A stretch of 64,000 nucleotides of DNA, taken from contig JAPKZO010000025.1 of NCBI GenBank assembly GCA_026393755.1, positions 1 through 64,000 on the forward strand, read 5' to 3'. This document shows, in pieces, positions 23,507-37,909 of this stretch (the first letter of the stretch is position 1; each line of letters starts with the position of its first letter). Under the pieces are notes generated by a model. The model did no database searches, had not been told where the DNA came from, and was given only the letters and a program-made list of their open reading frames with translations. Both the position numbers and the translations under genes were made by a program. This DNA is from Acidobacteriota bacterium (GTDB lineage: Bacteria > Acidobacteriota > Vicinamibacteria > Vicinamibacterales > JAKQTR01).

Positions 23507-25813
23507 CTATTTCGCCGGCTGTCCAGGCTGTTCCACCTTCAATGTCGCGACGTTGTTCAGAGCATCTGACGCTCTGATGACGGTCCGGCCGATCGCCCCA
23601 GCGTCGATTCTCAGTCCATAGCGTGCGTGAGTGCCGTCGCCGATGCCATCGGTGGGCAGGAGCGTCTGCCACGGGCTCGCGTCCACGGAGTACTCGACAC
23701 GGTCGATGGCCGAATGCGAATCGCGGACATCGATGACCACCGCGGCCTGCGCCCCGTCGCGCGACACGCTCACCACCGAGATCGCGGGCGGGGTATTGTC
23801 GATGTCGATCGCGTCGCTCTCGAGCGATCCGGTCAGGAAGCTCCCCTCGGGGTTGTCCAGCCGATCGCTCGCGACCACCCTGATGAGATACGTGCCATCG
23901 GACACCGACGTCGTATCCCATGTCAGCACCTGATCACTGGTCGCGCGTCGGAGCAGCGTCCATCCCGGCGACTCCACACGACGAAAGAAGATGTCGTAGC
24001 TCAGTCGGTCATCGTTCTCATCTTCAGCCTTCCAGATGAAGGTCTGCAGCCCCTTCTGATAGATCTTCCGTCCCAGCGCCGGACCCGCTTCTGGCGAGGG
24101 CGGGGGAGCCGTGCCCAGGGGCAGTGAGTAGATCGGAAGCCGGGAGTCGGCTGCGGAATCGGCGATGCCCGCGAATTCAGGTTCGCCCGTCGGGAACGGA
24201 CGTTGATGCACCATGCCGGGCGGCAGTGCCGAGATCGAAAGGACGTGAGGCCGCGCATTGCGTTGCCGGTATCCGATCTTCACCAGCGCCAGCGCGGGCC
24301 CAGGCGCGTCGGCTGCGGGTGCCGACAGGACCGCCTTCCACTGGAAGTAGCGCGCTGCGGGGTTCTGGACGGCGTCGCCTTCAGCCCGGGCGTACGGACC
24401 CGACCATGCGCTCCAGGTGTCGTCAGGAGCCGACGTGTTCCCGGATCGCGTGAACATCTGGACGCGCGCCGTGCCGCTGGTCTGGGCGCGCCAGCTCAAT
24501 GTGCCCCACACCGCGGCCATGCCGGCATCCTTCACATCCGACATGTAGGTGCCTTCGGCTGCCCGATCACCGGTGAGCACATAGACCTTGGCCGGGTTCG
24601 ACGTGGCGTAGTAGCGGGCCTGACCCGAGGCGAGCAGGGCCGTCACCTGCTGCCCGCCGAACCTGGTGACGAGCGTCGTGCGGGCAGGATTTCCCGCAAC
24701 GCGAAACAACTTGCCGCCGTTGCCCGTCGCGATCGTGACGGCGCCGTCCTTCTCCACGCAGATGTCGAACGGAATGTCGTCTTTCGATTCCCAGACAATC
24801 TCGACGCCGCCCTCGTTGTCGATGCGGTACACGGCCCCCTTCGAGGCGGTCTTGTCCTGCGGCCGGCCTCCCGCAGCGCTGGGCTGGCCTGTGGACGTGG
24901 GGGAGTCGACCACGGTGATCGAGACGACCTCGGTCGACACTGACGCGCTGGTCGGAGCCTTTGGTTCGTCGGCCGCCGGAACCGCCGGCGATCGATCGTC
25001 GCCACCCGAACTCTTGCCGTTGACGGCGGCCGCATAGACTTCTCCGCCGGCTCCGACGCGCAGAGCGCGCATTTCTCGGAACGGCGAGTCCACCAGCGCG
25101 AAGGCTTTCCCCGCCGGGTCGATGCGCAGTACGCGTCCGGGCGAATCGGTCGCGGCGAGCAACTGTCCGCTTCGATCGAAGACGAGCGAGGTGACGTGTT
25201 TGGTTTGTGTCCGGTAGAACACTTCGCCCTTGCCGGCTGCGGTGACGCGATAGATCGTGCCCTTGTCGCCCGTGCCGACATAGAGCCGTCCCTGTCCATC
25301 GAGAGCCAGCGACCAGATGTACTTGTCATCCGGATCGAAATACACCGTCGCGCGGCCAGCCGTATCGACGCGGTAGACCTTGCCGTCCGGAGAGGTCGCG
25401 ACCATGAGCGCGCCGTCAGGAGCCGCGAGAATGGCATGAACTTCGAGTTCCTTCGCCTTGAAGAACTCCGTGGCCTTGCCGCTGGCGTCGATTCTCCAGA
25501 CCTGGCCATCGTTGCCGCTGCCTGCGAAGACGGCGCCCTCGGGTCCCGCCACCAGGGTCCAGATAAAGGGCACGGTCGCCTCGTACACCGTCTTGACGAT
25601 GGGTCCGAGGACGAGGCGTCCCGCATCTTCGATCGACAACCCGTCGACTTCGCCCTTCAGCAGGTCGGCCTGCGTCGACACCTGCCAGAAACGGGCCGAG
25701 GTGGCATGGCTGGTGGCCGCCGAGAACGTCACCAGAGCGGCCAACGCGACGAACCGCATCGGGGCACGAAGCCTCATCTTCACGGGTGAACCTTTCGCGT
25801 ATATTCGCATCAT
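23507..25813 (-). CDS. exported beta-propeller protein with C-terminal Ig/FN3-like region
   Basis: 768 residues from ATG 25813, which overlaps the stop of the upstream S55 gene (ATGA). GTG 25780 (preceded by AAAGGT) would give a shorter N-terminus and a cleaner signal peptide. After a Sec signal peptide, residues about 45-430 contain repeated propeller blades (GPEGAVFAGSGNDGQVWRIDASGKA, PDGALMVATSPDGKVYRVD, GQGRLYVGTGDKGTIYRV), resembling NHL/YncE/PQQ-type propellers. About 530-765 holds beta-sandwich segments (FIWKAEDENDDRLSYDIFFR, DNTPPAISVVSVSRDGAQAAVVIDV). Function unknown. Tight coupling to the peptidase-like gene suggests a shared envelope role. Confidence 0.8.
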   Translation of the reverse strand: MMRIYAKGSPVKMRLRAPMRFVALAALVTFSAATSHATSARFWQVSTQADLLKGEVDGLSIEDAGRLVLGPIVKTVYEATVPFIWTLVAGPEGAVFAGSGNDGQVWRIDASGKATEFFKAKELEVHAILAAPDGALMVATSPDGKVYRVDTAGRATVYFDPDDKYIWSLALDGQGRLYVGTGDKGTIYRVTAAGKGEVFYRTQTKHVTSLVFDRSGQLLAATDSPGRVLRIDPAGKAFALVDSPFREMRALRVGAGGEVYAAAVNGKSSGGDDRSPAVPAADEPKAPTSASVSTEVVSITVVDSPTSTGQPSAAGGRPQDKTASKGAVYRIDNEGGVEIVWESKDDIPFDICVEKDGAVTIATGNGGKLFRVAGNPARTTLVTRFGGQQVTALLASGQARYYATSNPAKVYVLTGDRAAEGTYMSDVKDAGMAAVWGTLSWRAQTSGTARVQMFTRSGNTSAPDDTWSAWSGPYARAEGDAVQNPAARYFQWKAVLSAPAADAPGPALALVKIGYRQRNARPHVLSISALPPGMVHQRPFPTGEPEFAGIADSAADSRLPIYSLPLGTAPPPSPEAGPALGRKIYQKGLQTFIWKAEDENDDRLSYDIFFRRVESPGWTLLRRATSDQVLTWDTTSVSDGTYLIRVVASDRLDNPEGSFLTGSLESDAIDIDNTPPAISVVSVSRDGAQAAVVIDVRDSHSAIDRVEYSVDASPWQTLLPTDGIGDGTHARYGLRIDAGAIGRTVIRASDALNNVATLKVEQPGQPAK

Positions 25814-27672
25814 GGCCGTTGCTTGCGGCCATCGAGCACCAGCGTGAGCGTGCGTTGTCCCGAGACCGCCAGCGAGGTTCGGATGTCCCAGGCGCCAAGC
25901 GTGGATTGCTGGAGGGACGTGCCTCCGCCGCCCGCCCGATCGCTGTCCATCACACTGAGCACTGACGAGGGCAGGCCGGGCAGCGCTTCGCTGGCGACGA
26001 TCGCCCCGAGGTTGCGCCCGAGGAGTCTGACATACACGCGGTTGTTGTGCCGTGTGTCATTGAGCCGGCGGATCAGCGCGGCTGCCGAATCCGGTCCGAT
26101 CGACGGCCGGCCGTCGCGCGCCTCCCACTGGGCGAGCCTGGGGCCGTCGCTGACGAGCAAGGTGAGCGAATCGTCCACGTTGAGCGGGATCGGGATCGGA
26201 ACGGTGTGCAGCACGTCTTCGCCCCGCCAGGTGCGGAGCAGAATCTTAAGTGGCACCGTTCGCCCGGAGCGGATCGCGGCGGCATCGATCCACACGCGCT
26301 CGATCGTCGCTGTCTGGGGCCGCTCGGTGGATTCAATCGACAGGTTGATTGACTCGATGTCGACCCGTTCACGATCGTTGTTCAGCAGGGCGGCAATCGG
26401 CGCCACGACCGCCGCCGCCGCGGTCACCCCCGGCTGATCGCCGACGTACATCTCGTCCAGTTCGACATCGGCCTGTCCGCGAACGACCGTCTGGCCCCGC
26501 ACCGCATACGTCTCGGCGCCGAAATCGCGCTCGTGCGACGAAAACGTGTTGAACAGCGCCGTGTAGACGAGCAGGGGCGTCAACAGCGGATCCTCGGCCA
26601 CCTGGAACGTAAACGATCGCCGGGGACGCCCGGCGTGATCGAGCGCGACATTCACGGTGATGGTGCGAGGACCCGGGCCGAGCGCGCCCGAAACCGCCGT
26701 CGCGCGGTCCTGCTGGATCGTGCCGACGACTTCGCCGATCGACGACAGTTTGATCGAACTGAGCAGGCTGGGCAGCACGGTGTGGACGAAGGCCCGCGTC
26801 ATCGGAAACCGCGCCGGACCGACGTTGTAGAAGGGGTGACCGAATGCATAGACGCGATCGCCGTCGACCTCGGTCACCGTGCCGGTCGCGCCGAGACTCA
26901 AGTCGCCCGATATCAACCCGACGCCTATCGGATCGCCCGGCCGCAGAGGAGCCGCCGAACCCTGCCGCGTCGCTGCTGTGGCAGTCGTCGCGCCCGCGGC
27001 ACCCGGAGCGAGGATGAGGCCGGCTTGCGAGAATAGATTCAGGATCGGTTGAATGGCTTTCTCATCGAACCCACCGACCACGAGTGGCGTGGCAATCGGT
27101 CTGAGAGCGGTGGCCGTCCGGCTGTCGTACGCGCCCGCCGGACCGCTGTACGAGACGTGCGCGGCGGATGCGGCAAACGGCGCGACGGGGCTGAGCGCGT
27201 GCTCGAAGGTCGCCGCCATCCCGGCCAATGGCATCACCGCGAGCGGCCGACGCAGTTGCGCCGCCGCTCCCGCGTCTCGTCCCGTCGTCGCGGCAATCAT
27301 CTCCTCGATCGGGGTGATGCCGGCGATGGGTTCCGTCGCGAACTGTCCGAGCGAATAGGAGATCGCGCCGAGCAGACGGCCGCCAACGTAGACCGGGCTG
27401 CCGCTCATGCCTGCGATGACCCCGGTCTTCGCAAGCGGTCCGCCGTCGATCCTGGCGAGAATCAGGTCGCGCTTCGGCCCGTTCGTATTGCGGAGCACGC
27501 CGATGATGTGGACGTTGAAGTCCTCGATCGTGGTGCCCTGGAACACCGTCCGTCCGACGCCCTCCATGCCGGGTTTCACTTCGTCCACGGACATGTACCG
27601 GCTGGCAGCCCGGGTGCCCAGTGCGAAGAACGACAGCAGAAGAAGCAGGGCGACAGTGCGGCGAAAGATCAT
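25810..27672 (-). CDS. SpoIVB/S55-type peptidase domain exported protein
   Basis: 620 residues from ATG 27672; the longer frame to 27744 lies inside the promoter and is excluded. Signal peptide about 1-23. An N-terminal S55-like domain (about 25-290) shows VKPGMEGVGRTVFQGTTIEDF, VIAGMSGSPVYVGGRLLGAIS (the GxSGSP serine, Ser90 or Ser92) and VYAFGHPFYNVG, all typical of the SpoIVB family. In Bacillus SpoIVB activates sigma-K; the homologues in non-spore-formers are uncharacterised. The C-terminal 320 residues are a separate, beta-rich region. Co-transcribed and overlapping with the propeller gene. Confidence 0.82.
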   Translation of the reverse strand: MIFRRTVALLLLLSFFALGTRAASRYMSVDEVKPGMEGVGRTVFQGTTIEDFNVHIIGVLRNTNGPKRDLILARIDGGPLAKTGVIAGMSGSPVYVGGRLLGAISYSLGQFATEPIAGITPIEEMIAATTGRDAGAAAQLRRPLAVMPLAGMAATFEHALSPVAPFAASAAHVSYSGPAGAYDSRTATALRPIATPLVVGGFDEKAIQPILNLFSQAGLILAPGAAGATTATAATRQGSAAPLRPGDPIGVGLISGDLSLGATGTVTEVDGDRVYAFGHPFYNVGPARFPMTRAFVHTVLPSLLSSIKLSSIGEVVGTIQQDRATAVSGALGPGPRTITVNVALDHAGRPRRSFTFQVAEDPLLTPLLVYTALFNTFSSHERDFGAETYAVRGQTVVRGQADVELDEMYVGDQPGVTAAAAVVAPIAALLNNDRERVDIESINLSIESTERPQTATIERVWIDAAAIRSGRTVPLKILLRTWRGEDVLHTVPIPIPLNVDDSLTLLVSDGPRLAQWEARDGRPSIGPDSAAALIRRLNDTRHNNRVYVRLLGRNLGAIVASEALPGLPSSVLSVMDSDRAGGGGTSLQQSTLGAWDIRTSLAVSGQRTLTLVLDGRKQRP

Positions 27673-27715
27673 GAAGGGCAGTCGGGCTTGCCTCAGGGTT
27701 GACTCGACATCCTTG

Positions 27716-27744
27716 GTTATAGCGAACTGTCCGATCGCGGTCAA
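27716..27744 (-). promoter_or_regulatory. sigma-70 promoter of the S55 peptidase-propeller operon
   Basis: Minus strand TTGACC, 17 bases, TATAAC: five of six in each hexamer with ideal spacing. Predicted start near 27709, about 37 bases before ATG 27672. Confidence 0.7.
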
Positions 27745-27778: not shown

Positions 27779-27807
27779 TTGACACCGCGAACTTCCTTTG
27801 GTAGCCT
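27779..27807 (+). promoter_or_regulatory. promoter of the aroDE-trp operon
   Basis: TTGACA (27779-27784, perfect), 17 bases, TAGCCT (27802-27807) preceded by TGG, an extended -10 arrangement. Predicted start about 27814, just before the leader peptide. It gives a transcript leader of about 150 bases to aroDE. Confidence 0.55.
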
Positions 27808-27820
27808 CATCCGCAGGAAC

Positions 27821-27889
27821 ATGACGAAATCTCTCGGCGGCATCACCGTTTATCCGGCCTGGTGGTGGTGGTGTGTCCAGACCGGCTGA
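27821..27889 (+). CDS. trpL: trp operon leader peptide
   Basis: A 22-codon ORF, MTKSLGGITVYPAWWWWCVQTG, then TGA at 27887. Codons 14-17 are four consecutive TGG Trp codons (27860-27871). AGGA lies just upstream of the ATG (short spacing). Position (between a promoter and a terminator hairpin ahead of the trp genes), size and Trp run are those of a classical attenuation leader peptide: with little charged Trp-tRNA the ribosome stalls in the Trp run. Too short for routine gene callers. Confidence 0.9.
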   Translation: MTKSLGGITVYPAWWWWCVQTG

Positions 27890-27896
27890 GAGGCTT
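27827..27896 (+). promoter_or_regulatory. trp attenuator: pause (1:2) and antiterminator (2:3) segments
   Basis: Segment 1, AAATCTCTCGGC (27827-27838), can pair with segment 2, GGCTGAGAGGCTT (27884-27896), at 11 of 12 positions including two G-U. Segment 2 is almost identical to the right-arm complement of segment 3 (27931-27944), differing by one missing A, so 2:3 can form an antiterminator. The Trp codons lie in the loop of 1:2, and a ribosome stalled there would keep 1 and 2 apart and favour 2:3. When the ribosome reaches the stop at 27887 it covers segment 2, allowing the terminator. Confidence 0.8.
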
Positions 27897-27930
27897 GATT
27901 CCTAAGTTCGACGAAGCGAGATAGACCACA

Positions 27931-27970
27931 AAGCCTCTTCAGCCAGCCGGCTGGAGGGGCTTTTTTGTTT
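27931..27970 (+). terminator. trp attenuator terminator (3:4 hairpin plus T-run)
   Basis: AAGCCTCTTCAGCC (27931-27944), loop AGCC, GGCTGGAGGGGCTT (27949-27962): a 14-bp stem with two G-U pairs, followed by TTTTTTGTTT. An intrinsic terminator placed between the leader peptide and aroDE. The right arm contains GGAGG (27953-27957), the only good ribosome binding site for aroDE. Confidence 0.9.
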
Positions 27971-29437
27971 GTGATCCGTATGACAGAAGGCCCACGAATC
28001 TGCGCCACGGTGACCGCCCGCACGATGGCGGACCTGGTTCGCGTCCGTGACAAAGCGACGGACGCCGACATGGTGGAGATGCGCCTCGACACGGTCTCGG
28101 ATCCCGATGTGGCGGCGGCACTCGACCATCGCCATCTTCCCGTCATCGTGACGTGTCGGCGGCAGGCCGAAGGCGGCCACTTCAGCGGGAGCGAGCAGGA
28201 GCGGCGCGCGCTGCTCCTGCAGGCGCTCGATGCGGGTGCCGAGTTTGTCGATCTCGAATGGCAGGCAGGATTTGATCACGTGGTTCGGGCCCGCCGCGGA
28301 CGCAACGTCGTACTGTCGCACCACGACTTTGCCGGTGTTCCAGCCGACTTGGCCTCGCGGGTGGACGCGATGCTAGCCACAGGCGCGGAGGTCGTGAAGG
28401 TGGCGGTCACGGCCTCGCGACTGAGCGACTGCCTGACTCTGCTGGAGCTCGGCCGGACGCGCCGGGACAGGCGCCTGATCGTGCTGGCGATGGGCGAGGC
28501 CGGTCTGGTCACGCGGGTATTCGCGGCGCGGTTCGGATCGTGCTGGACGTACGCCGGCGAGGGTGTGGCGCCCGGCCAGATAGGCGCGGCGCAACTCACC
28601 AATGAGCTGGCGTTCCGACGGATCGGCCCGGCCACTCGCGCTTACGGACTCTTCGGGCGCGGGATCGCGCATTCGCCGTCGCCCGCCATGCACAACGCCG
28701 GATTCTCCGAACTGGCCGTCGACGCCGCGTATGTGCCGCTGGTTGGCGCAGACGCTGAAGATGTGATGACGTTCGCGCGCGGATTTGATCTGGCTGGCGC
28801 CAGTGTGACAATCCCGTTCAAGGTCGATCTGCTGAGTCGTCTCGATGACGTGGATCCCGGCGCGCGCGCGATCGGCGCCGTCAACACCCTCACGGCCACC
28901 AACGGAGGCTGGTCAGGATCGAGCACCGACGGGGCCGGATTCCTCGCTGGGCTGCCAGCCGGTGTGTCGCCCGCGTCCCGTGCGGCGATCCTGGGAACAG
29001 GCGGCGCCGCGCGCGCCGTGGCAGCGGCCCTCCGCGATGCCGGTGCGAAAGTGACGATGTTCGGGCGGTCGGCTGAGGCCGCCGGGTCGGTGGCCGCCGA
29101 TCTCGGCGTTCGAGGGGCCGCGCGTCCGGTACCGCCGTCGAGCTGGGATCTGCTCGTCAACGCGACGCCGGTCGGAACCTCTCCCGACGTGGATCGGACC
29201 TCGTTCCCCGAGGGGACGTTCGATGGCGGAACGGTCTACGACCTGGTCTATTACCCCGAACAGACGCGACTGCTGCGCGACGCCGCGCAGGCCGGGTGCC
29301 GGACGGTTGGCGGTCTCACCATGTTGATTGAACAGGCCCGGCTCCAGCAGGCACGCTGGACGGGCCGCACGCCCAGTGTGGCGACACTTCGCACGGCGGC
29401 AGCCTTGGCGCTCGCACGCCGGATGGAACAGTCATGA
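27965..29437 (+). CDS. aroDE: bifunctional 3-dehydroquinate dehydratase / shikimate dehydrogenase
   Basis: 490 residues from TTG 27965, seven bases after GGAGG; ATG 27980 without a Shine-Dalgarno is the alternative. The N-terminal type I dehydroquinase (about 10-220) has VEMRLD, LSHHDF (catalytic His) and VVKVAVTA (Schiff-base Lys). The C-terminal shikimate dehydrogenase (about 222-490) has GIAHSPSPAMHNAGF, VTIPFK (catalytic Lys), the NADP loop GTGGAARA and NATPVG. It performs shikimate steps 3 and 4. Such fusions are standard in plants but a minority form in bacteria. First gene after the trp attenuator, with an ATGA overlap to trpE, so its expression should follow tryptophan supply. Confidence 0.93.
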   Translation: MFVIRMTEGPRICATVTARTMADLVRVRDKATDADMVEMRLDTVSDPDVAAALDHRHLPVIVTCRRQAEGGHFSGSEQERRALLLQALDAGAEFVDLEWQAGFDHVVRARRGRNVVLSHHDFAGVPADLASRVDAMLATGAEVVKVAVTASRLSDCLTLLELGRTRRDRRLIVLAMGEAGLVTRVFAARFGSCWTYAGEGVAPGQIGAAQLTNELAFRRIGPATRAYGLFGRGIAHSPSPAMHNAGFSELAVDAAYVPLVGADAEDVMTFARGFDLAGASVTIPFKVDLLSRLDDVDPGARAIGAVNTLTATNGGWSGSSTDGAGFLAGLPAGVSPASRAAILGTGGAARAVAAALRDAGAKVTMFGRSAEAAGSVAADLGVRGAARPVPPSSWDLLVNATPVGTSPDVDRTSFPEGTFDGGTVYDLVYYPEQTRLLRDAAQAGCRTVGGLTMLIEQARLQQARWTGRTPSVATLRTAAALALARRMEQS

Positions 29438-30909
29438 ACCTGACGAGCTTCGAGCAGTTTGTGGAATGGGCCCAGCGCGGCACGTTTGTGCCGGTCTGCA
29501 AGCAGATCATGGCGGATCTGCTGACGCCGGTCTCGGCGTTCCTCAAGATCGCGGAACATTCCGACTACGCCTACCTGCTGGAAAGCGTGGAAGGCGGCGA
29601 GCAGATGGCCCGCTACTCGTTCCTCGGCAAAGACCCGTTCCTGATCCTCCGCGCCAACGACGGCGTCGTGACCCTCGAGCGAAACGGGATCACGACCACC
29701 AGCGACGAGGGCTTCGTCCCCACTCTGCGCCGGGTGATGGCCGAGTTCCGCTCGCCGTACGTGCCCGGCCTGCCTCGGTTCACCGGGGGAGCCGTCGGCT
29801 TCATGGGCTATGATGCGGCGTCCTGGTTCGAGCCGGTCACGCTGCAGCCGGCGTCGGAGTCGGATCCGATCATCGACCAGGCCGGCTTCATGCTGTTCGA
29901 CACGGTGCTCGCCTTCGACCACGTGCAGCACCGCATCCTGATCATCGCGAACGCCAGGATCTCCGCCGACGATGACCTGCGCGCGCTCTACCAGTTTGCG
30001 TGCGCGAAGATCGAGTTCCTCGAACGCGAGCTGGAGCGAAACCTGTCGCAGGGCGAGCGCGTCGCCGCCGCACCCATCGACGTGCAGGCCAACATGACGC
30101 GCGAACAGTTCGAACAGCACGTGCGCTCGGCCAAAGACTTGATTGCGGCGGGGGACATCTACCAGGTGGTCGTGTCGCAGCGCTTCGAGGCCGACCTCGA
30201 GGCGAATCCCTTCGCGGTCTACCGGGCTCTGCGCCACGTGAACCCGTCCCCGTACATGTTCTTCGTGCGGATGGCTGGCGTGTCGATGGTCGGGGCATCG
30301 CCCGAGATGCTGGTGCGCGTGGAGGGCCGGAAGGTGGAAACGCACCCGATTGCCGGAACCCGTCCGCGCGGTCGGAACGCCGAGGAGGATCAGCGGCTGG
30401 CGGAGGAACTGAAGGCCGACGAGAAGGAGCGGGCCGAGCACGTGATGCTGGTCGACCTCGGCCGCAACGATCTCGGGCGGGTCTGCGAGTACGGATCCGT
30501 GAGGGTACCTCAGTTCATGGCTCTCGAACGCTATTCGCATGTGATGCATCTGGTCTCGAATGTCGAGGGCTTGCTGGCCGGGGATCGCGATCGGCTGGAT
30601 GCGCTGGTGTCGTGCTTCCCGGCGGGAACGGTCTCCGGCGCGCCGAAAATCCGTGCGATGGAGATCATCGCGAAGCTCGAGCCGAACCGTCGCGGCGCAT
30701 ATGGCGGAGCAGTGGGGTACCTCGATTTCGCCGGAAACCTGGACTTCTGCATCACGATTCGCACGGTGATCATCGTCGGGCGCCGGGCGATGGTGCAGGC
30801 CGGGGCGGGCATCGTTGCCGATTCCAACCCGACGACCGAGTTCGAAGAGACCCTCGACAAGGCGCGCGCCATGATTGGCGCGCTGAATCTGGCCCAGCAG
30901 GGGCTGTAG
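29434..30909 (+). CDS. trpE: anthranilate synthase component I
   Basis: 491 residues, starting inside the aroDE stop (ATGA). Converts chorismate and ammonia or glutamine (with TrpG) to anthranilate. The Trp feedback-site motif LLES is present at 48-51, so allosteric inhibition by tryptophan is expected. Catalytic motifs: DIYQVVVSQRFE, GASPEMLVR, HPIAGTRPRGR, DLGRNDLGRVC, SCFPAGTVSGAPKIRAMEII and AGAGIVADSNP. Full length. A 63-bp gap follows before trpG. Confidence 0.96.
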   Translation: MNLTSFEQFVEWAQRGTFVPVCKQIMADLLTPVSAFLKIAEHSDYAYLLESVEGGEQMARYSFLGKDPFLILRANDGVVTLERNGITTTSDEGFVPTLRRVMAEFRSPYVPGLPRFTGGAVGFMGYDAASWFEPVTLQPASESDPIIDQAGFMLFDTVLAFDHVQHRILIIANARISADDDLRALYQFACAKIEFLERELERNLSQGERVAAAPIDVQANMTREQFEQHVRSAKDLIAAGDIYQVVVSQRFEADLEANPFAVYRALRHVNPSPYMFFVRMAGVSMVGASPEMLVRVEGRKVETHPIAGTRPRGRNAEEDQRLAEELKADEKERAEHVMLVDLGRNDLGRVCEYGSVRVPQFMALERYSHVMHLVSNVEGLLAGDRDRLDALVSCFPAGTVSGAPKIRAMEIIAKLEPNRRGAYGGAVGYLDFAGNLDFCITIRTVIIVGRRAMVQAGAGIVADSNPTTEFEETLDKARAMIGALNLAQQGL

Positions 30910-30972: not shown

Positions 30973-31542
30973 GTGTTGTTGATCATCGACAACTTTGATT
31001 CGTTTACCTACAACCTCGTCCAGTCGTTTGGCGAGCTGGGGGCGACGCCGGTCGTGTTCCGCAACAACGCGATCACGACTCAGGAAATCGAGGCACTGCG
31101 GCCGGAACGCATCGTCATCTCTCCCGGGCCAGGCCGACCCGAAGATGCGGGCGTGTCCGAGGACGTGATCCGGTTCTTCGCCGGCAAGGTGCCGATTCTT
31201 GGCGTGTGTCTTGGTCATCAGGCAATCGGGCACGTGTTCGGGGGGCGCATCATCCGGGCGCCAAAGGCGCTGCACGGAAAGGTGTCGTCGATCGAGCACG
31301 ACGGAAAGGCGCTGTTCCAGGGTTTCCGGGGGCCATTTGACGCCGGCCGCTATCACTCGCTGGCGGTGTCGGAGCAAGAATGGCCGGCAGACCTCGAGGT
31401 GGCCGCGCGCGCCGCCGGGGACGGCGTCGTGATGGCGTTGCGGCACAAGAGATGGCAGGTCCACGGCGTGCAGTTTCATCCCGAGTCGGTGTTGACCCCT
31501 GAAGGCCGGCGTCTGCTTCACAACTTTCTGAATCTCAGGTAG
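30973..31542 (+). CDS. trpG: anthranilate synthase component II (glutamine amidotransferase)
   Basis: 189 residues from GTG 30973. Class I glutamine amidotransferase supplying ammonia to TrpE. LLIIDNFDSFTYNLVQ is the typical N-terminus; the triad is Cys79 (GVCLGHQAIG) with His and Glu in QFHPESVLT near the C-terminus. It may also serve para-aminobenzoate synthesis, as many TrpG/PabA proteins do; no separate pabA is visible. 14 bp precede trpD. Confidence 0.95.
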   Translation: MLLIIDNFDSFTYNLVQSFGELGATPVVFRNNAITTQEIEALRPERIVISPGPGRPEDAGVSEDVIRFFAGKVPILGVCLGHQAIGHVFGGRIIRAPKALHGKVSSIEHDGKALFQGFRGPFDAGRYHSLAVSEQEWPADLEVAARAAGDGVVMALRHKRWQVHGVQFHPESVLTPEGRRLLHNFLNLR

Positions 31543-31556
31543 CGGAGGCGCGTGCG

Positions 31557-32597
31557 ATGTTGGGTGATTTGCTCCAGACGGTGATGCGGCGGCAGGATCT
31601 GACGGCTGATCAGGCGACGGCCGCCATGGATGCCATCATCGACGGCCGCGCTCGGGGGGCCCAGGTGGCTGGCCTGCTCGTGGGCCTCGCGATGAAGGGC
31701 GAACGCCCGGACGAGATCGTCGGATTCGCTCGCAGCATGCGGGCCCGGGCGGTCAGGATCAACGCGCCCGAGGGCGGCACGGTCGATCTGTGCGGCACCG
31801 GCGGGGACGGGGCCGGCACGTTCAATATCTCCTCTGTCGCGGCTGTCGTGGTGGCCGCCTGCGGCGTCACCGTGGCCAAGCACGGCAATCGATCGGTATC
31901 GAGCCGGTGCGGCAGCGCCGATCTGTTCGAGGCCCTCGGCGTCAATGTCGCGGCGCCCCCGCCGGTCGTCGAAGCGTGCCTGGCCGAGACGGGCATGGCC
32001 TTTCTCTTCGCCCCGGTGTTCCATCCATCTATGCGGAACGTCGCGGAGGTGAGAAGGGAGTTGGGCGTGCGAACCGCGTTCAACCTGCTCGGCCCGCTGA
32101 CCAATCCGACCCATCCCCGACGTCAACTGATTGGGGTGCCGCGGCCCGAGTGCACGGAACTGATTGCCCGGTCGCTCTCACTGCTCGGATCCGAGCGCGC
32201 GTGGGTCGTGCATGGCGCCGACGGACTCGATGAGATCTCGACCACGGGCTACACGAAGGTGTCAGAGGCCCGCGGCGGCACGGTCAACACGTTCTATCTG
32301 CATCCGGGTGACGCCGGCCTGCCGAAGGCGACGCTGGCGTCGCTTGCCGGTGGCGACGCGGCCACCAATGCCGAGATGGCGAGAGAAATTCTGCGGGGCA
32401 GCACCGGGCCAGCGCGCGACATCGTGCTCCTGAACGCCGGTGCCGTGCTTCTGCTGGCGGGAAAGGCCGACACGCTTCGCGATGGCATCGCGCGGGCGGG
32501 ACAGGCGATCGACTCAGGCGCGGCGCAGGCCACGCTCGATCGCCTCGTGGCCCGGTCGAACGACCTGAGCGGCGCCTCTTCGAGAGCGGGAGCATAG
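31557..32597 (+). CDS. trpD: anthranilate phosphoribosyltransferase
   Basis: 346 residues. Joins anthranilate with PRPP. Motifs: DLCGTGGDGAGTFNISS (PRPP loop), KHGNRSVSSRCGSADLFEALG and FNLLGPLTNPTHPRRQLIGV. Normal length, with GGAGG eleven bases upstream of ATG 31557. Stops 2 bp before trpC. Confidence 0.96.
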   Translation: MLGDLLQTVMRRQDLTADQATAAMDAIIDGRARGAQVAGLLVGLAMKGERPDEIVGFARSMRARAVRINAPEGGTVDLCGTGGDGAGTFNISSVAAVVVAACGVTVAKHGNRSVSSRCGSADLFEALGVNVAAPPPVVEACLAETGMAFLFAPVFHPSMRNVAEVRRELGVRTAFNLLGPLTNPTHPRRQLIGVPRPECTELIARSLSLLGSERAWVVHGADGLDEISTTGYTKVSEARGGTVNTFYLHPGDAGLPKATLASLAGGDAATNAEMAREILRGSTGPARDIVLLNAGAVLLLAGKADTLRDGIARAGQAIDSGAAQATLDRLVARSNDLSGASSRAGA

Positions 32598-32599
32598 AC

Positions 32600-33472
32600 G
32601 TGCCGACGTTCGGCTCGAGGCGCTCGGGGAATCTGCTGGATGCCATCGTTGCCGCGGCGCGGCGCACGGTCGAGACGCGGCGCGCGAGCGAATCGGCGAT
32701 CGCACTGGCCGGGCGGGCGGCACGGCTCGAGCCCAGGGGCGCGATGTTTCGAGAGCGCCTGTGTCGGGTGACCGAAGTCAATGTGATCGCCGAGTGCAAG
32801 CGCCGATCGCCGGCACGAGGTATCCTGCGGAGTGAGTACCACCCCGGCGACCTCGCGAGGTCGTACGAGCAGGGCGGCGCGGCGGCGATTTCCGTGCTGA
32901 CCGAGCCCACGTTCTTCGATGGGTCACTTGCGCATCTGGAAGAGGTCAGGGCCGCGGTTGCCTTGCCGATCCTCCGGAAGGACTTCATCGTTGATCAGTA
33001 CCAGTTGCTGGAGGCGAGGGCAGCGGGCGCGGACGCGGTCCTTCTGATAGTCGCGGCCTGCTCGCTCTCGGAACTGGCCGCGTTGATCGACGTCGCCCAG
33101 AAGATGGGCCTGGCGACGCTGGTCGAGGCCCACTCGGGAGAGCAGATTCAGCAGGGCATCGACGCGGGCGCCACGATCATCGGCGTCAACAGCCGGGACC
33201 TGAGAACACTGGACGTGGATCTTTGCGCCTGCGACGCGCTCGTCGGCCAGATTCCGCCCGGGTGTGTCGCCGTTGCGGAAAGCGGCATCCGATCGCTCGC
33301 GGACGTCGGGCATCTGCGCGCGGTTGGCTATCAGGCCATGCTGATCGGAGAGTGGCTCATGTCGGCAGCCGATCCGTGCAAGAGACTTCAGGAGGTTGCC
33401 GCAATCGGCGGCGCGGTCATGCGCGGCCGCGAAGATGGCGCAGCGGGCGCGACCCGGAGGGAGAGACGGTGA
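32600..33472 (+). CDS. trpC: indole-3-glycerol phosphate synthase
   Basis: 290 residues from GTG 32600. TIM-barrel enzyme that cyclises CdRP to indoleglycerol phosphate. Motifs: VIAECKRRSPARGIL (catalytic Glu and Lys), ISVLTEPTFFDGSLAHL, PILRKDFIVDQYQLLEARAAGADAVLLI, VNSRDLRT and AESGIRSLADV. The C-terminus ([17 protein letters not shown]) is a loose charged tail past the fold. GTGA overlap with trpF. Confidence 0.95.
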   Translation: MPTFGSRRSGNLLDAIVAAARRTVETRRASESAIALAGRAARLEPRGAMFRERLCRVTEVNVIAECKRRSPARGILRSEYHPGDLARSYEQGGAAAISVLTEPTFFDGSLAHLEEVRAAVALPILRKDFIVDQYQLLEARAAGADAVLLIVAACSLSELAALIDVAQKMGLATLVEAHSGEQIQQGIDAGATIIGVNSRDLRTLDVDLCACDALVGQIPPGCVAVAESGIRSLADVGHLRAVGYQAMLIGEWLMSAADPCKRLQEVAAIGGAVMRGREDGAAGATRRERR

Positions 33473-34107
33473 GCCGCACCCGAATCAAGATCTGCGGGAT
33501 GACCAATGTCGAGGACGCACAACTGGCGGTTGACCTCGGCGCCGACGCGGTCGGGTTCGTGTTCTGGCCGGCAAGCCCGCGATACGTCACCCTCGAACAG
33601 GCCGGTCTGGTCGCCGCCACGCTCCCGCGCTTCGTGACGGCGGTCGGCGTGTTTGTCAACGAGTCACCCGACCGGATCCGTCGCGTGATTGATGAGGTGG
33701 GTCTTGGAGCGGTGCAACTGCATGGCGACGAACCCGTCGAGCAGTGGCTCTCGATGCCCTGCCACACGCTGAAGGCCGTCGGGATCGACGACAGGTTCGA
33801 CACGGCGTCGCTGGCGGCCTGGCCGAGCACCGTGATGCCGCTGCTGGATGTGGCTGACCCGGCGCGCCGCGGTGGAACAGGGAAGGCGATCGACTGGACG
33901 CGAGCGGCCGCGGCTGCACGCCTCAGGCGTATCGTCCTGGCGGGTGGCCTCCGGCCCGAGAACGTCGAGCAGGCCATCGACACGGTCGCACCCTATGCGG
34001 TCGATGTGTCGTCTGGCGTTGAACGGGAACCCGGTGTGAAGGATGCTGAGCGTATGAGCGCCTTTGTCGCGGCCGTCGCCCGCGCCGATGCGCGGAGGAC
34101 CCGATGA
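33469..34107 (+). CDS. trpF: phosphoribosylanthranilate isomerase
   Basis: 212 residues from GTG 33469, which overlaps the trpC stop and follows GGAGG. An Amadori isomerase with TIM barrel: [36 protein letters not shown] (catalytic Cys), VQLHGDE, the catalytic Asp in PLLDVAD, and phosphate-binding [10 protein letters not shown] and AVDVSSGVE. Separate from trpC, unlike the enterobacterial fusion. ATGA overlap with trpB. Confidence 0.95.
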
Positions 34108-35336
34108 ACGTCGTCGAGACTGCGAGTGAGCCCCGCTTTGGTCTTCGCGACCCGGACGCCCGGGGGTACTTCGGCGAGTTCGGCGGGCGGTTCGTGCCGG
34201 AAACGTTGATGGCGCCCATTACCCAGTTGCGGGACGCGTACCTGGGGGCCCGAGCGGACCAGACATTCCGCGACGAGTTGCTGAGACTCCTCACGACGTA
34301 TGCGGGACGGCCCACGCCGATCTTCGATGCCCGGCGCCTGGGCGCCGCGTGTGGCGGCGTGCGGATCATGCTGAAGCGCGAAGATCTGACGCATACCGGC
34401 GCGCACAAGATCAACAACGCCATCGGGCAGGCGCTGGTCGCCGTCAGGATGGGCAAGCGCCGGGTCGTTGCCGAGACCGGGGCCGGACAGCACGGCGTGG
34501 CGACCGCGACGGCGTGCGCACTGCTCGGATTGGACTGCGAAGTCTACATGGGCGCCGAGGACATGCGTCGCCAGGCGCTCAACGTCGTGCGGATGCGGTT
34601 GCTGGGCGCCCGCGTCACTCGCGTCGAGGCGGGGAGCCGGACACTCAAGGACGCCATCAACGAAGCGATGCGCGATTGGGTGACCAACGTCGACACCACG
34701 CACTACCTGCTCGGATCGGTGCTGGGCCCCCATCCATATCCGCTGATGGTTCGCGAGTTCCAGTCGGTCATCGGTGTCGAAGCGAAACAACAGTACGGAT
34801 CACTGATTGGCGGCCTGCCCGACGCGATTGTGGCGTCGGTCGGGGGAGGCAGCAATGCGCTCGGCATCTTCGACGCCTTTATCGATGATGCGGCGGTTCG
34901 GTTGATTGGGGTCGAAGCCGGCGGACGCGCCATCATTCCGGGTGAACACGCTGCACGGTTGGCTGGCGGGGCACTGGGCATCTTCCAGGGAACCCGCACG
35001 GTCGTGCTCCAGGATTCGCACGGCAATATCCAGGGAACCCACTCGATCTCCGCCGGACTCGACTACGCCGCGATTGGCCCCGAGCACGCATGGCTCCATG
35101 CGCGCGGGCGGGTCGAATATACGCACGTGTCGGATGGGGCCGCCACCGAAGCGTTCCAGACGTTGGCTCGGCTGGAGGGCATTCTTCCCGCGCTGGAATC
35201 GGCGCACGCCGTTGCGCACGCCATGGTGCTCGGCAGGCAGATGGGTCCAGGCCGGACGATCCTCGTCAACCTCTCCGGGCGGGGCGACAAGGATGTCCAG
35301 ACGGTGGCTGCCGAACTCGGCGTGGCCGGAGACTGA
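34104..35336 (+). CDS. trpB: tryptophan synthase beta chain
   Basis: 410 residues, TrpB1 type. PLP enzyme that condenses indole with serine. PLP lysine K102 in [32 protein letters not shown]; the phosphate loop GGGSNALG; and [17 protein letters not shown]-terminus [15 protein letters not shown] is diagnostic. Its stop shares a base with the trpA ATG (TGATG), so alpha and beta are co-translated. Confidence 0.97.
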
Positions 35337-36127
35337 TGAAGATGTCACGAATAGCAGAGACATTCGGTCGCCTGCGTCAGGAGCACCGCCCCGGGCTGGT
35401 CACGTACACGACGGCCGGCGATCCCGATCTGGCCAGGAGTCGCAAGATTCTCGAGGCGCTCGACGGAGTCGGGGTCGATGTGCTCGAGGTCGGCGTGCCC
35501 TTTTCTGACCCGATGGCCGACGGCCCCGTCATCCAGCGGGCGAGCGAACGTGCGCTGGCCGCGGGGGTGACGCTCGATGGCGTGCTGGACATGGTGGCGC
35601 AGGCACGCCCAGGCATTCGCGCGCCCATCATCCTGTTCTCGTACGCGAATCCGCTGTACCGAATGGGCTTTGACCGGTTTGCCGCCCGAGCGGCCGCGGC
35701 CGGCGTGGACGGGGTTCTCGCACTGGACCTGCCGCTGGAAGAGTCGGCAGATCTTCGGCGCTGTCTGTGCGCCGCCGGTGTGGACATGATCTTCCTGCTC
35801 AGCCCGACGACCAGCGCGGATCGGATGCGACGGGCCGGTGAGCTCGGCAGCGGGTTTGTGTACGCGATTTCGCGCCTCGGGGTGACGGGGGCTCGCGATG
35901 CCCTCTCGTTCGGCATTCCAGAATTGGTCACACGCATCCGCGAAGCGACGACCCTGCCGGTCGTCGTCGGTTTCGGCGTCTCGACGGCCGCACACGTGGC
36001 TGAGGTCTGCCGGTGGGCGGACGCGGCGGTGGTGGGAAGCGCGTTGGTCAAGGTGATCGAAGCACACGGCGCATCCCCCGATCTGATCGCGCAGGTGACG
36101 CAGTACGTGCGGGGGCTCAGGGAGTGA
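35336..36127 (+). CDS. trpA: tryptophan synthase alpha chain
   Basis: 263 residues from ATG 35336. TIM-barrel lyase releasing indole from indoleglycerol phosphate. Catalytic Glu in VLEVGVPFSDPMADGPVIQRA and catalytic Asp in the VDGVLALDLPLEE region; VVVGFGVSTAAHV binds phosphate. Last gene of the uninterrupted aroDE-trpEGDCFBA run. 97 bp follow before the DAHP synthase gene; I see no strong terminator there, so read-through is possible. Confidence 0.95.
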   Translation: MKMSRIAETFGRLRQEHRPGLVTYTTAGDPDLARSRKILEALDGVGVDVLEVGVPFSDPMADGPVIQRASERALAAGVTLDGVLDMVAQARPGIRAPIILFSYANPLYRMGFDRFAARAAAAGVDGVLALDLPLEESADLRRCLCAAGVDMIFLLSPTTSADRMRRAGELGSGFVYAISRLGVTGARDALSFGIPELVTRIREATTLPVVVGFGVSTAAHVAEVCRWADAAVVGSALVKVIEAHGASPDLIAQVTQYVRGLRE

Positions 36128-36224: not shown

Positions 36225-37277
36225 GTGGTCGTTGTAATGCAGGAAGGGGCGACTCCCGCTCAGGTGGACCGGGTCGCCGCGCATCTCGAACAGATGGGAT
36301 TCGGAGTTCATCGCTCTGTCGGTGCGAAGCGGATAGTGCTCGGTGTCGTAGGCGAAAGCCCGCGCGCTGATCCGGAGCTGGTCCAGATGTTCGACGGCGT
36401 GCAGGAGGTGGTGCAGGTCTCGGAACCCTACAAACTGGCAAGCCGAGCGTTTCGTCCGCAGGGCACGATCATCAACCTCGATGACGTGCGCATCGGCGGC
36501 GACGAAGTGATCATGATGGCGGGTCCCTGTGCGGCCGAAAGCGAGGAGCAGGTTCACGCGTGCGCGGCAGCCGTCAAACGCGCTGGCGCCAAGGTACTGC
36601 GGGGGGGCGCGTTCAAGCCGCGAAGCTCGCCCTACAGCTTCCAGGGACTCGGTGAGGAAGGCTTGCGGATGTTGTGCGACGCGGCACGGGCCCAGAACAT
36701 GAAGCTGGTGTCCGAGGTCATGGACCCGAGCCAGATCGACATCGTCGAACGCTATGTGGACATCTTTCAGGTCGGCGCGCGCAACATGCAGAACTACACG
36801 TTGTTGCGCGAACTGGGGAAGCGGCGCAAGCCCGTGCTGCTCAAGCGTGGCATCTCCGCGACGATTGAGGAGTGGCTGCTGTCGGCTGAGTACCTGCTGG
36901 GCGGCGGAAACATGGACGTGATTCTCTGCGAGCGGGGGATCCGGACGTTCGAGACCTATACCCGCAATACGCTCGACATTTCGGCGATCCCCATCGTCAA
37001 GAAGTTGAGCCATTTGCCGATCTTCGTCGACCCGAGCCACGGAACTGGACGCCGCGACAAGGTGGCGCCGATGGCGCGGGCGGCGGTGGCGGCCGGCGCC
37101 GACGGCCTGATTATTGAAGTGCACGTCGATCCCGACCGGGCCCTGAGCGACGGCGCGCAATCGCTGTTTCCGCCGCAATTCGACCGGCTGATGGCCGAAT
37201 TGCGGATCATCGCGCCCGCGATCGGCCGGTCCATCTGTGTGGAGCCAGTGGCGCGACGCGGGTGGGCGCGGGAATGA
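36225..37277 (+). CDS. aroF: 3-deoxy-7-phosphoheptulonate synthase (type I-beta)
   Basis: 350 residues from GTG 36225. First committed step of the shikimate pathway (PEP plus erythrose 4-phosphate). The N-terminal ferredoxin-like domain (about 1-75) resembles the regulatory extension of Thermotoga-type enzymes, where Tyr/Phe inhibit. The barrel has MMAGPCAAES, LRGGAFKPRSSPYSFQG, QVGARNMQNYTLL, PVLLKRG and VDPSHGTGRR. It follows trpA and overlaps the TyrA-like gene by ATGA. A weak TAAGAT at 36170 may provide an internal promoter. Confidence 0.93.
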   Translation: MVVVMQEGATPAQVDRVAAHLEQMGFGVHRSVGAKRIVLGVVGESPRADPELVQMFDGVQEVVQVSEPYKLASRAFRPQGTIINLDDVRIGGDEVIMMAGPCAAESEEQVHACAAAVKRAGAKVLRGGAFKPRSSPYSFQGLGEEGLRMLCDAARAQNMKLVSEVMDPSQIDIVERYVDIFQVGARNMQNYTLLRELGKRRKPVLLKRGISATIEEWLLSAEYLLGGGNMDVILCERGIRTFETYTRNTLDISAIPIVKKLSHLPIFVDPSHGTGRRDKVAPMARAAVAAGADGLIIEVHVDPDRALSDGAQSLFPPQFDRLMAELRIIAPAIGRSICVEPVARRGWARE

Positions 37278-37909
37278 TCGATGAGACGCGCCGGGTGCCG
37301 CTGCGGATGGCAGGCCGGCTGCCTGAAGCGGCTCCCGTGTTCGAGCGAATCGCCATTCTGGGCCTCGGGAAGATCGGGGGCTCGCTGGCGCTCGCGGTCA
37401 AGCAGGCGTGGCCGAAAGCGCTCGTCATCGGCGTCGACACCAACCATGTGCTGGAGCGTGCCGTCAACCGGGGGGCGATTGATGTCGGCGCCAACGACTT
37501 GATCGTGGCCGCCGACGCCGACCTGGTCGTGCTGGCGGCTCCGGTTGCCTCCAACCTGACGCTGCTCGCAGATCTCCCCGAATACGTGAGCGGCGACTGC
37601 ACGTTGACTGATCTGGGGCCGTCCAAGCGACCCATGATCGAGGCCGCCCGATCGCTGCCCGCGCGGTTGACGTTTGTCGGAGGCGACCCGTTGATCGGTG
37701 CGGCCGCCGGGGACATCGATTCGGCCGACGCCGATCTGTTTGCCGATCGGCTCTGGGTACTCACGCCGTCAGACGGTTCGTCGGCGCAGACACTTCGGCT
37801 CTCGCAATTCGTCAGAGGCGTTGGGGCCATTCCCGTCGAGATGACGTTGGAGAGACACGATCAGCTGGCGACGTACCTTGGGTACGTTCGTGAATGGTCC
37901 GGACTATAA
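37274..37909 (+). CDS. tyrA: truncated prephenate dehydrogenase-like protein
   Basis: 211 residues from ATG 37274 (overlapping the aroF stop). Only the N-terminal NAD-binding Rossmann part of TyrA is present: FERIAILGLGKIGGSLALAVKQ (about 23-45), VLAAPVASNLTLL and TLTDLGPSKRPMIEAA. Two features are abnormal. The catalytic motif usually reads GGHPMxG, but here it is GGDPLIGAA, so the catalytic His is Asp. The frame also ends at HDQLATYLGYVREWSGL, removing the all-helical dimerisation domain (roughly 80-100 residues). The next gene starts 8 bp later, so the missing part is not merely frameshifted. Probably a decaying gene or a repurposed dehydrogenase; tyrosine synthesis would need another enzyme. 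Confidence 0.8.
   Translation: MIDETRRVPLRMAGRLPEAAPVFERIAILGLGKIGGSLALAVKQAWPKALVIGVDTNHVLERAVNRGAIDVGANDLIVAADADLVVLAAPVASNLTLLADLPEYVSGDCTLTDLGPSKRPMIEAARSLPARLTFVGGDPLIGAAAGDIDSADADLFADRLWVLTPSDGSSAQTLRLSQFVRGVGAIPVEMTLERHDQLATYLGYVREWSGL

Follow-up and report, generated by a model that had tools for sequence, protein, structure and literature searches.

The leader region that precedes the aromatic amino-acid operon of a Vicinamibacterales genome (Acidobacteriota) is, with high probability, a ribosome-mediated transcription attenuator, and we read it as a derived, Trp-only member of a family of switches that was probably multi-aromatic in its ancestral form. It was found in a stretch of 64,000 nucleotides, hereafter the window, whose source contig spans 134,962 bases. 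This reading is carried by the anatomy of the leader, its conservation, the covariation of two competing helices and the codon pattern of the leader peptides, which together suggest that the leader is translated, that ribosomes would stall on it and that the operon would respond to amino-acid supply.

All elements of the switch lie on the plus strand and in the places where the original prediction, made from the window alone, had put them. The promoter (27779–27807) consists of a −35 box TTGACA (27779–27784), a 17 nt spacer and a −10 box TAGCCT (27802–27807). A standard consensus promoter scan of the window missed it because the −10 box is weak; the form TTGACR-17/18-(TGn)TAnnnT is kept at the same position in nearly all leaders of the order. 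A putative Shine–Dalgarno-like AGGA (27815–27818) precedes a leader open reading frame of 22 codons (27821–27889), which starts with ATG at 27821, encodes the peptide MTKSLGGITVYPAWWWWCVQTG and stops at TGA (27887–27889); Trp/Tyr/Phe-run leaders stand ahead of aroDE in relatives as well. Its four tandem TGG codons (27860–27871) fall 6–9 codons 5′ of the segment 2 base on which we anchored the codon-position profile described below. Segment 2 (27884–27896), the 5′ arm of the antiterminator, shares bases with the leader stop codon. Segment 3 (27930–27944) is at once the 3′ arm of the antiterminator and the 5′ arm of the terminator, and the terminator is completed (27949–27966) by segment 4 as its 3′ arm (27949–27963) and a T run (27961–27966). 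Folding of 27875–27945 gave exactly the 2:3 helix (z −3.9; 0 of 200 shuffled sequences folded equally well). The terminator-bearing stretch likewise folded better than shuffled sequence (z −3.7), and the terminator scan found one terminator-like site in the region versus 0.2 expected. As in classical attenuators, a leader reading frame with a codon run is followed by a terminator before the first structural gene and by an antiterminator that excludes this terminator. On the minus strand, a divergent gene with a SpoIVB/S55 peptidase domain (25810–27744) has its 5′ end approximately 35 nt from the trp promoter.

The operon behind the switch opens with aroDE, a fusion of 3-dehydroquinate dehydratase and shikimate dehydrogenase (27980–29437; PF01487, PF08501). 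It continues on the same strand with trpE (29434–30909; TIGR00564), trpG (30973–31542; TIGR00566), trpD (31557–32597; TIGR01245), trpC (32600–33472; NF001377), trpF (33475–34107, start estimated; assigned from its reading frame and a syntenic homologue in relatives), trpB (34104–35336; TIGR00263), trpA (35330–36127, start estimated; TIGR00262) and an aroF-type DAHP synthase gene (36225–37277; TIGR01361, PF18152). The last member is a tyrA remnant (37262–37909; PF02153), which retains the N-terminal domain of prephenate dehydrogenase and, by comparison with relatives, carries Asp in place of the catalytic-motif His and has no C-terminal domain; it overlaps the next gene, a CoA-transferase gene. 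The arrangement aroDE-trpEGDCFBA-aroF-tyrA was present in all 20 relatives sampled, with aroF missing in one.

We propose that RNA polymerase would start at approximately 27813 and that the leader would be translated while it emerges. When charged tRNA-Trp is scarce, the ribosome would stall on the four TGG codons. Segment 2 would then stay exposed and could pair with segment 3 before the polymerase has made segment 4, and transcription would continue into aroDE-trpEGDCFBA-aroF-tyrA. When Trp is plentiful, the ribosome would reach the stop codon and cover segment 2, so that segments 3 and 4 would pair and transcription would end in the T run near 27966. An equilibrium fold in which a ribosome was placed over the Trp codons still preferred the terminator; the switch must therefore rely on co-transcriptional timing, as other attenuators do.

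The original prediction had named conservation of the TGG run and of the alternative pairings in relatives as its check beforehand. Both are kept throughout the order, and the two helices that compete with each other both covary; this supports the ribosome-mediated reading. A leader with a Trp-rich run and a terminator stand ahead of aroDE almost everywhere among the relatives, and a covariance model of the element matched 143 of the order's 162 genomes, with every one of the 15 families represented (142 genomes at E < 1e-9, plus G029 at 1.8e-4). Wherever checked, there was one strong match per genome, at the aroDE locus. In the window's own 4.4-Mb genome the model likewise found only this locus, with no second copy below E 1e-3; most of the 16 genomes that gave no match are fragmented, or the start of aroDE was not found in them either. 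In the terminator helix 95.2% of the cells are paired and 58 are double-changed, versus a shuffled mean of 15.6; the antiterminator helix has 90.9% paired and 27 double-changed cells, versus a shuffled mean of 10.1. As a control for both helices, sliding the partner by one column lowered the pairing to 49–63%. The duplex formed by segment 3 and the sequence behind the Trp run had a median z of −3.1 over 120 leaders, and this partner of segment 3 follows the last Trp codon at a median distance of 10.5 nt. With such spacing the partner would just stay clear of a stalled ribosome; a ribosome that has reached the stop codon, which in most of the 120 leaders ends 9–15 nt downstream of segment 2, would cover it.

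One part of the predicted scheme was not supported. The pause helix between 27827–27838 and 27884–27896 can be drawn, yet it is no better than chance, either in the window (−15.0 versus −12.8 kcal/mol for shuffled sequence) or over 118 relatives (median z −0.4), and we rejected this 1:2 pairing as a conserved part of the element. In the window its 5′ arm precedes the first Trp codon by 22–33 nt, and it is not obvious that a ribosome stalled at the Trp codons would reach back over it. The textbook scheme of three helices is thus incomplete here. The pause helix is unneeded for the Trp-dependent decision, and what is absent may be only its conservation.

Throughout the order, the window included, the leaders might sense Trp only, with Tyr and Phe codons carried along as bystanders through ancestry, RNA structure or effects of the nascent peptide. 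We consider this unlikely, even if Trp codons predominate in almost all leaders, trp genes make up most of the operon, and the core of the window leader has neither Tyr nor Phe. With 118 leaders aligned on the base of segment 2 whose partner lies in segment 3, codons for Trp, Tyr and Phe occupied positions 4–9 upstream of this anchor, with background levels outside. Trp dominates at positions 6–8 (72–77 of the 118 leaders) and Tyr at position 5, where it is found in 62 leaders (53%), versus 1.65% in the longest reading frames of the same loci, which served as background. These Tyr codons comprise 50 TAT and 12 TAC, the substitutes at this position are Trp or Phe, and the non-aromatic neighbours vary freely. 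Since both Tyr codons occur and Trp or Phe replace Tyr at one position, the amino acid is what is kept. At least one Tyr codon is present in the core of 110 leaders, Phe in 46 and either of the two in 113, with cores such as WWYWC, WRYWF, WYWYW, SYWWWY, WWWYYAF, WWWFFYF and the Phe-rich WFWFIYF of family f14. Moreover, the distance to segment 2 fits the last aromatic codon (sd 3.3 nt) and not the last Trp codon (sd 5.0 nt). A further point against Trp-only sensing is that His codons turn up where his genes have joined the operon, in the sister order described below.

Synonymous codon use, the tighter placement of the last aromatic codon and the content of the operon argue that the Tyr and Phe codons are functional, and the conservation of Tyr could come in part from shared ancestry. 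The leader family of the order thus probably answers several aromatic amino acids, Trp together with Tyr or Phe, and the ancestral switch would probably have responded to a shortage of any of two or three of them. Mixed sensing of this kind suits the operon, because DAHP synthase and aroDE serve the common precursor and tyrA is a tyrosine gene. Rarer codons are favoured in the core relative to the coding background (TAT 64% versus 27%; TTT 69% versus 21%), and the rest of the leaders is intermediate between the two; this preference may reflect a tuning by slow decoding, or simply local AT content. As to Trp itself, leaders contain two to four Trp codons, three being typical and four occurring in 10 of 118. 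The four tandem codons of the window, which had been remarked upon as a high number, do lie at the high end of the order, but they are not its notable feature. The trpL leader of Vibrio harveyi has five Trp codons, and four in tandem are thus not exceptional.

Among the 15 families, only the window's own, f1, lacks Tyr in the core. Its cores read WWWWC (G000, G001) or FWWWC (G003, G004), with Cys, a single base change from Tyr, in the place that Tyr usually takes elsewhere. The operon TyrA of this family is also in decay. The His of the GGHP motif of prephenate dehydrogenases, which we take to be catalytic, is lost in all five f1 operon proteins (Asp, Asp, Leu, Gln, Leu) and intact in 20 of 21 other operons; the C-terminal domain is missing in four of the five, the window's included (the homologues in G001–G004 are L353, L359, L360 and L361). 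A second, divergent TyrA-like gene with an intact GGHP-type His was found in two f1 genomes (G000:C40:318192–318983, L363; G001:C19:15850–16608, L362) and possibly encodes a working prephenate dehydrogenase. The window switch is most simply understood as a sensor of Trp that arose from one of both Trp and Tyr, and we infer, as the order of events, that f1 probably lapsed to Trp-only control together with the decay of the operon tyrA. This link is a single evolutionary event and not a strict one. G031 has an intact TyrA His, yet no Tyr codon in its leader; G035 (L140, family f14) has Asn for the GGHP His, yet its leader keeps Tyr and Phe codons (WFWFIYF). We therefore rejected a strict rule that ties Tyr codons to an intact TyrA.

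The same slot ahead of aroDE is occupied by a leader in f16, a family of the same class and a different order. There the operon is a supraoperon, in which aroDE is followed by a thiF-like gene, hisZ, hisG, (hisB), hisH, hisA, hisF, hisIE, trpE, trpGD, trpC, trpF, trpB, trpA and a chorismate mutase gene. The f16 leaders (L304, L305, L314–L326) carry His codons along with Trp, Tyr and Phe, as in the peptides MTIVRRWRATVHHHRYHA and MRIERWRPTFHHHRHYD, in those that end in RRWRPVFRHHRYHP, RRWRTVFHYHWHP and WAWRPFFHFRYHP, and in endings such as VHHHRYHA and FHYHWHP. Their terminator opens with the same GCCTCTTCAGG motif as in Vicinamibacterales, and further hairpins seem to lie in the RNA that separates leader and terminator. 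We judge it reasonably probable that one homologous leader slot ahead of aroDE senses, across Vicinamibacteria, whatever amino acids the operon makes, namely Trp and Tyr (with or without Phe) in Vicinamibacterales and His, Trp and Tyr/Phe in the sister order, and that control codons were gained and lost with operon genes.

Elsewhere in the phylum, we inspected a part of the covariance-model matches at E 1e-3 to 0.1. A WWW leader was seen ahead of aroD-trpE (L287), and WWW leaders with terminators precede distant trpB-like genes, probably TrpB2, in other Acidobacteriota (L288, L289, L291). A leader ending in HHHHHHQR lies ahead of a hisZ-like/hisG cluster (L301; G448:C25) and is a candidate His attenuator. 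Loci L290, L292–L299 and L302 had terminator-like hairpins only and were discarded. Taken with the f16 leaders, the WWW and HHHHHHQR leaders make leader-peptide attenuation look common in Acidobacteriota.

The terminator might also act independently of leader translation, as a constitutive attenuator or under the control of an RNA-binding protein or small ligand. The sequence GCCTCTTCAGCC of segment 3/4 is conserved to an unusual degree, which would also be possible for a protein site; a segment that is obliged to pair with two partners is, however, itself expected to change slowly. The reading frame, the Trp run and the distance to segment 2 are all conserved, which speaks against this explanation. 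So does the search for other regulators, in which TrpR, TRAP and T-box were found in none of 20 relatives with positive controls detected. Nor is there a matching Rfam family: Trp_leader gave no match, either at the gathering score or at E ≤ 10, and low-scoring matches to Rfam miRNA families were set aside as chance. We regard translation-independent control as very improbable, and there is still less to be said for translational control by re-initiation or by sequestration of the aroDE start. In its favour, the terminator ends only ~14 nt before that start in the window; against it, a strong hairpin followed by T-rich sequence is kept in nearly all relatives at distances to aroDE of about 0 to 190 nt, and it is therefore termination, not masking of the start codon, that is conserved.

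Ribosome-mediated attenuation thus remains our preferred reading. Control by leader peptides is well documented in few phyla, and here it appears near-universal for one operon in a mostly uncultured acidobacterial order. The leaders form a readable record of the amino acids that an operon answers to, and their codon content can be compared with gene content over many genomes. Should the Tyr and His codons prove to be functional inputs, a single RNA switch would integrate several end products of two pathways, those of shikimate and of histidine. If codon content indeed tracks operon content, the family would comprise a ribosome-mediated tyrosine sensor and a multi-input attenuator, possibly with slow-codon tuning by TAT and TTT as a part of it.

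We know of no described leader that combines Trp, Tyr and Phe or His, Trp and Tyr, and our search of the open-access literature found no earlier description of either. The same search found no earlier description for Acidobacteriota, in line with the original prediction, whose author was not aware of one for this kind of organism. Among the closest known systems, enterobacterial trpL (Rfam Trp_leader) shares the short leader with tandem Trp codons, the antiterminator that competes with a U-tract terminator, and the position ahead of a trp operon. The acidobacterial element differs in that it has no Rfam match, its pause helix is unsupported, it belongs to another phylum and TrpR was not detected in the relatives searched; its operon starts with aroDE and includes DAHP synthase and tyrA, and Tyr and Phe codons are mixed in across relatives. 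The mixing of codons has parallels in other pathways. In Escherichia coli, thrL (Thr/Ile) and ilvL (Ile/Val/Leu) each combine, within a single leader, the codons of every end product that a shared pathway yields. The ilvB leader reading frames of Actinobacteria are likewise multi-amino-acid leaders (PMC1262725). The acidobacterial leaders resemble all three in mixing the codons of several pathway end products and differ from them in the pathway, these being of the aspartate and branched-chain families. The trp attenuators of Corynebacterium and Streptomyces are also of the classical type, with conserved pairing triples and leader peptides that contain double or triple UGG; in contrast to the leaders described here, no mixed aromatic codons were described for them, and no RNA structures were reported ahead of actinobacterial operons for tyrosine or phenylalanine (PMC1262725). 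The uORFC-13-1 motif, known from 24 examples in Acholeplasma and environmental sequences, is similar in that a candidate upstream reading frame with a Phe codon and a terminator stands ahead of aroF, a DAHP synthase gene, whereas its structure is another and no Trp run was described (PMC8632094). Before their own case in Firmicutes, Naville and Gautheret (2010) knew of no leader-peptide attenuation outside Proteobacteria and Actinobacteria (PMC2965389). Set against these systems, the mechanism is a known one, and what appears to be new is the mixed-aromatic type of leader.
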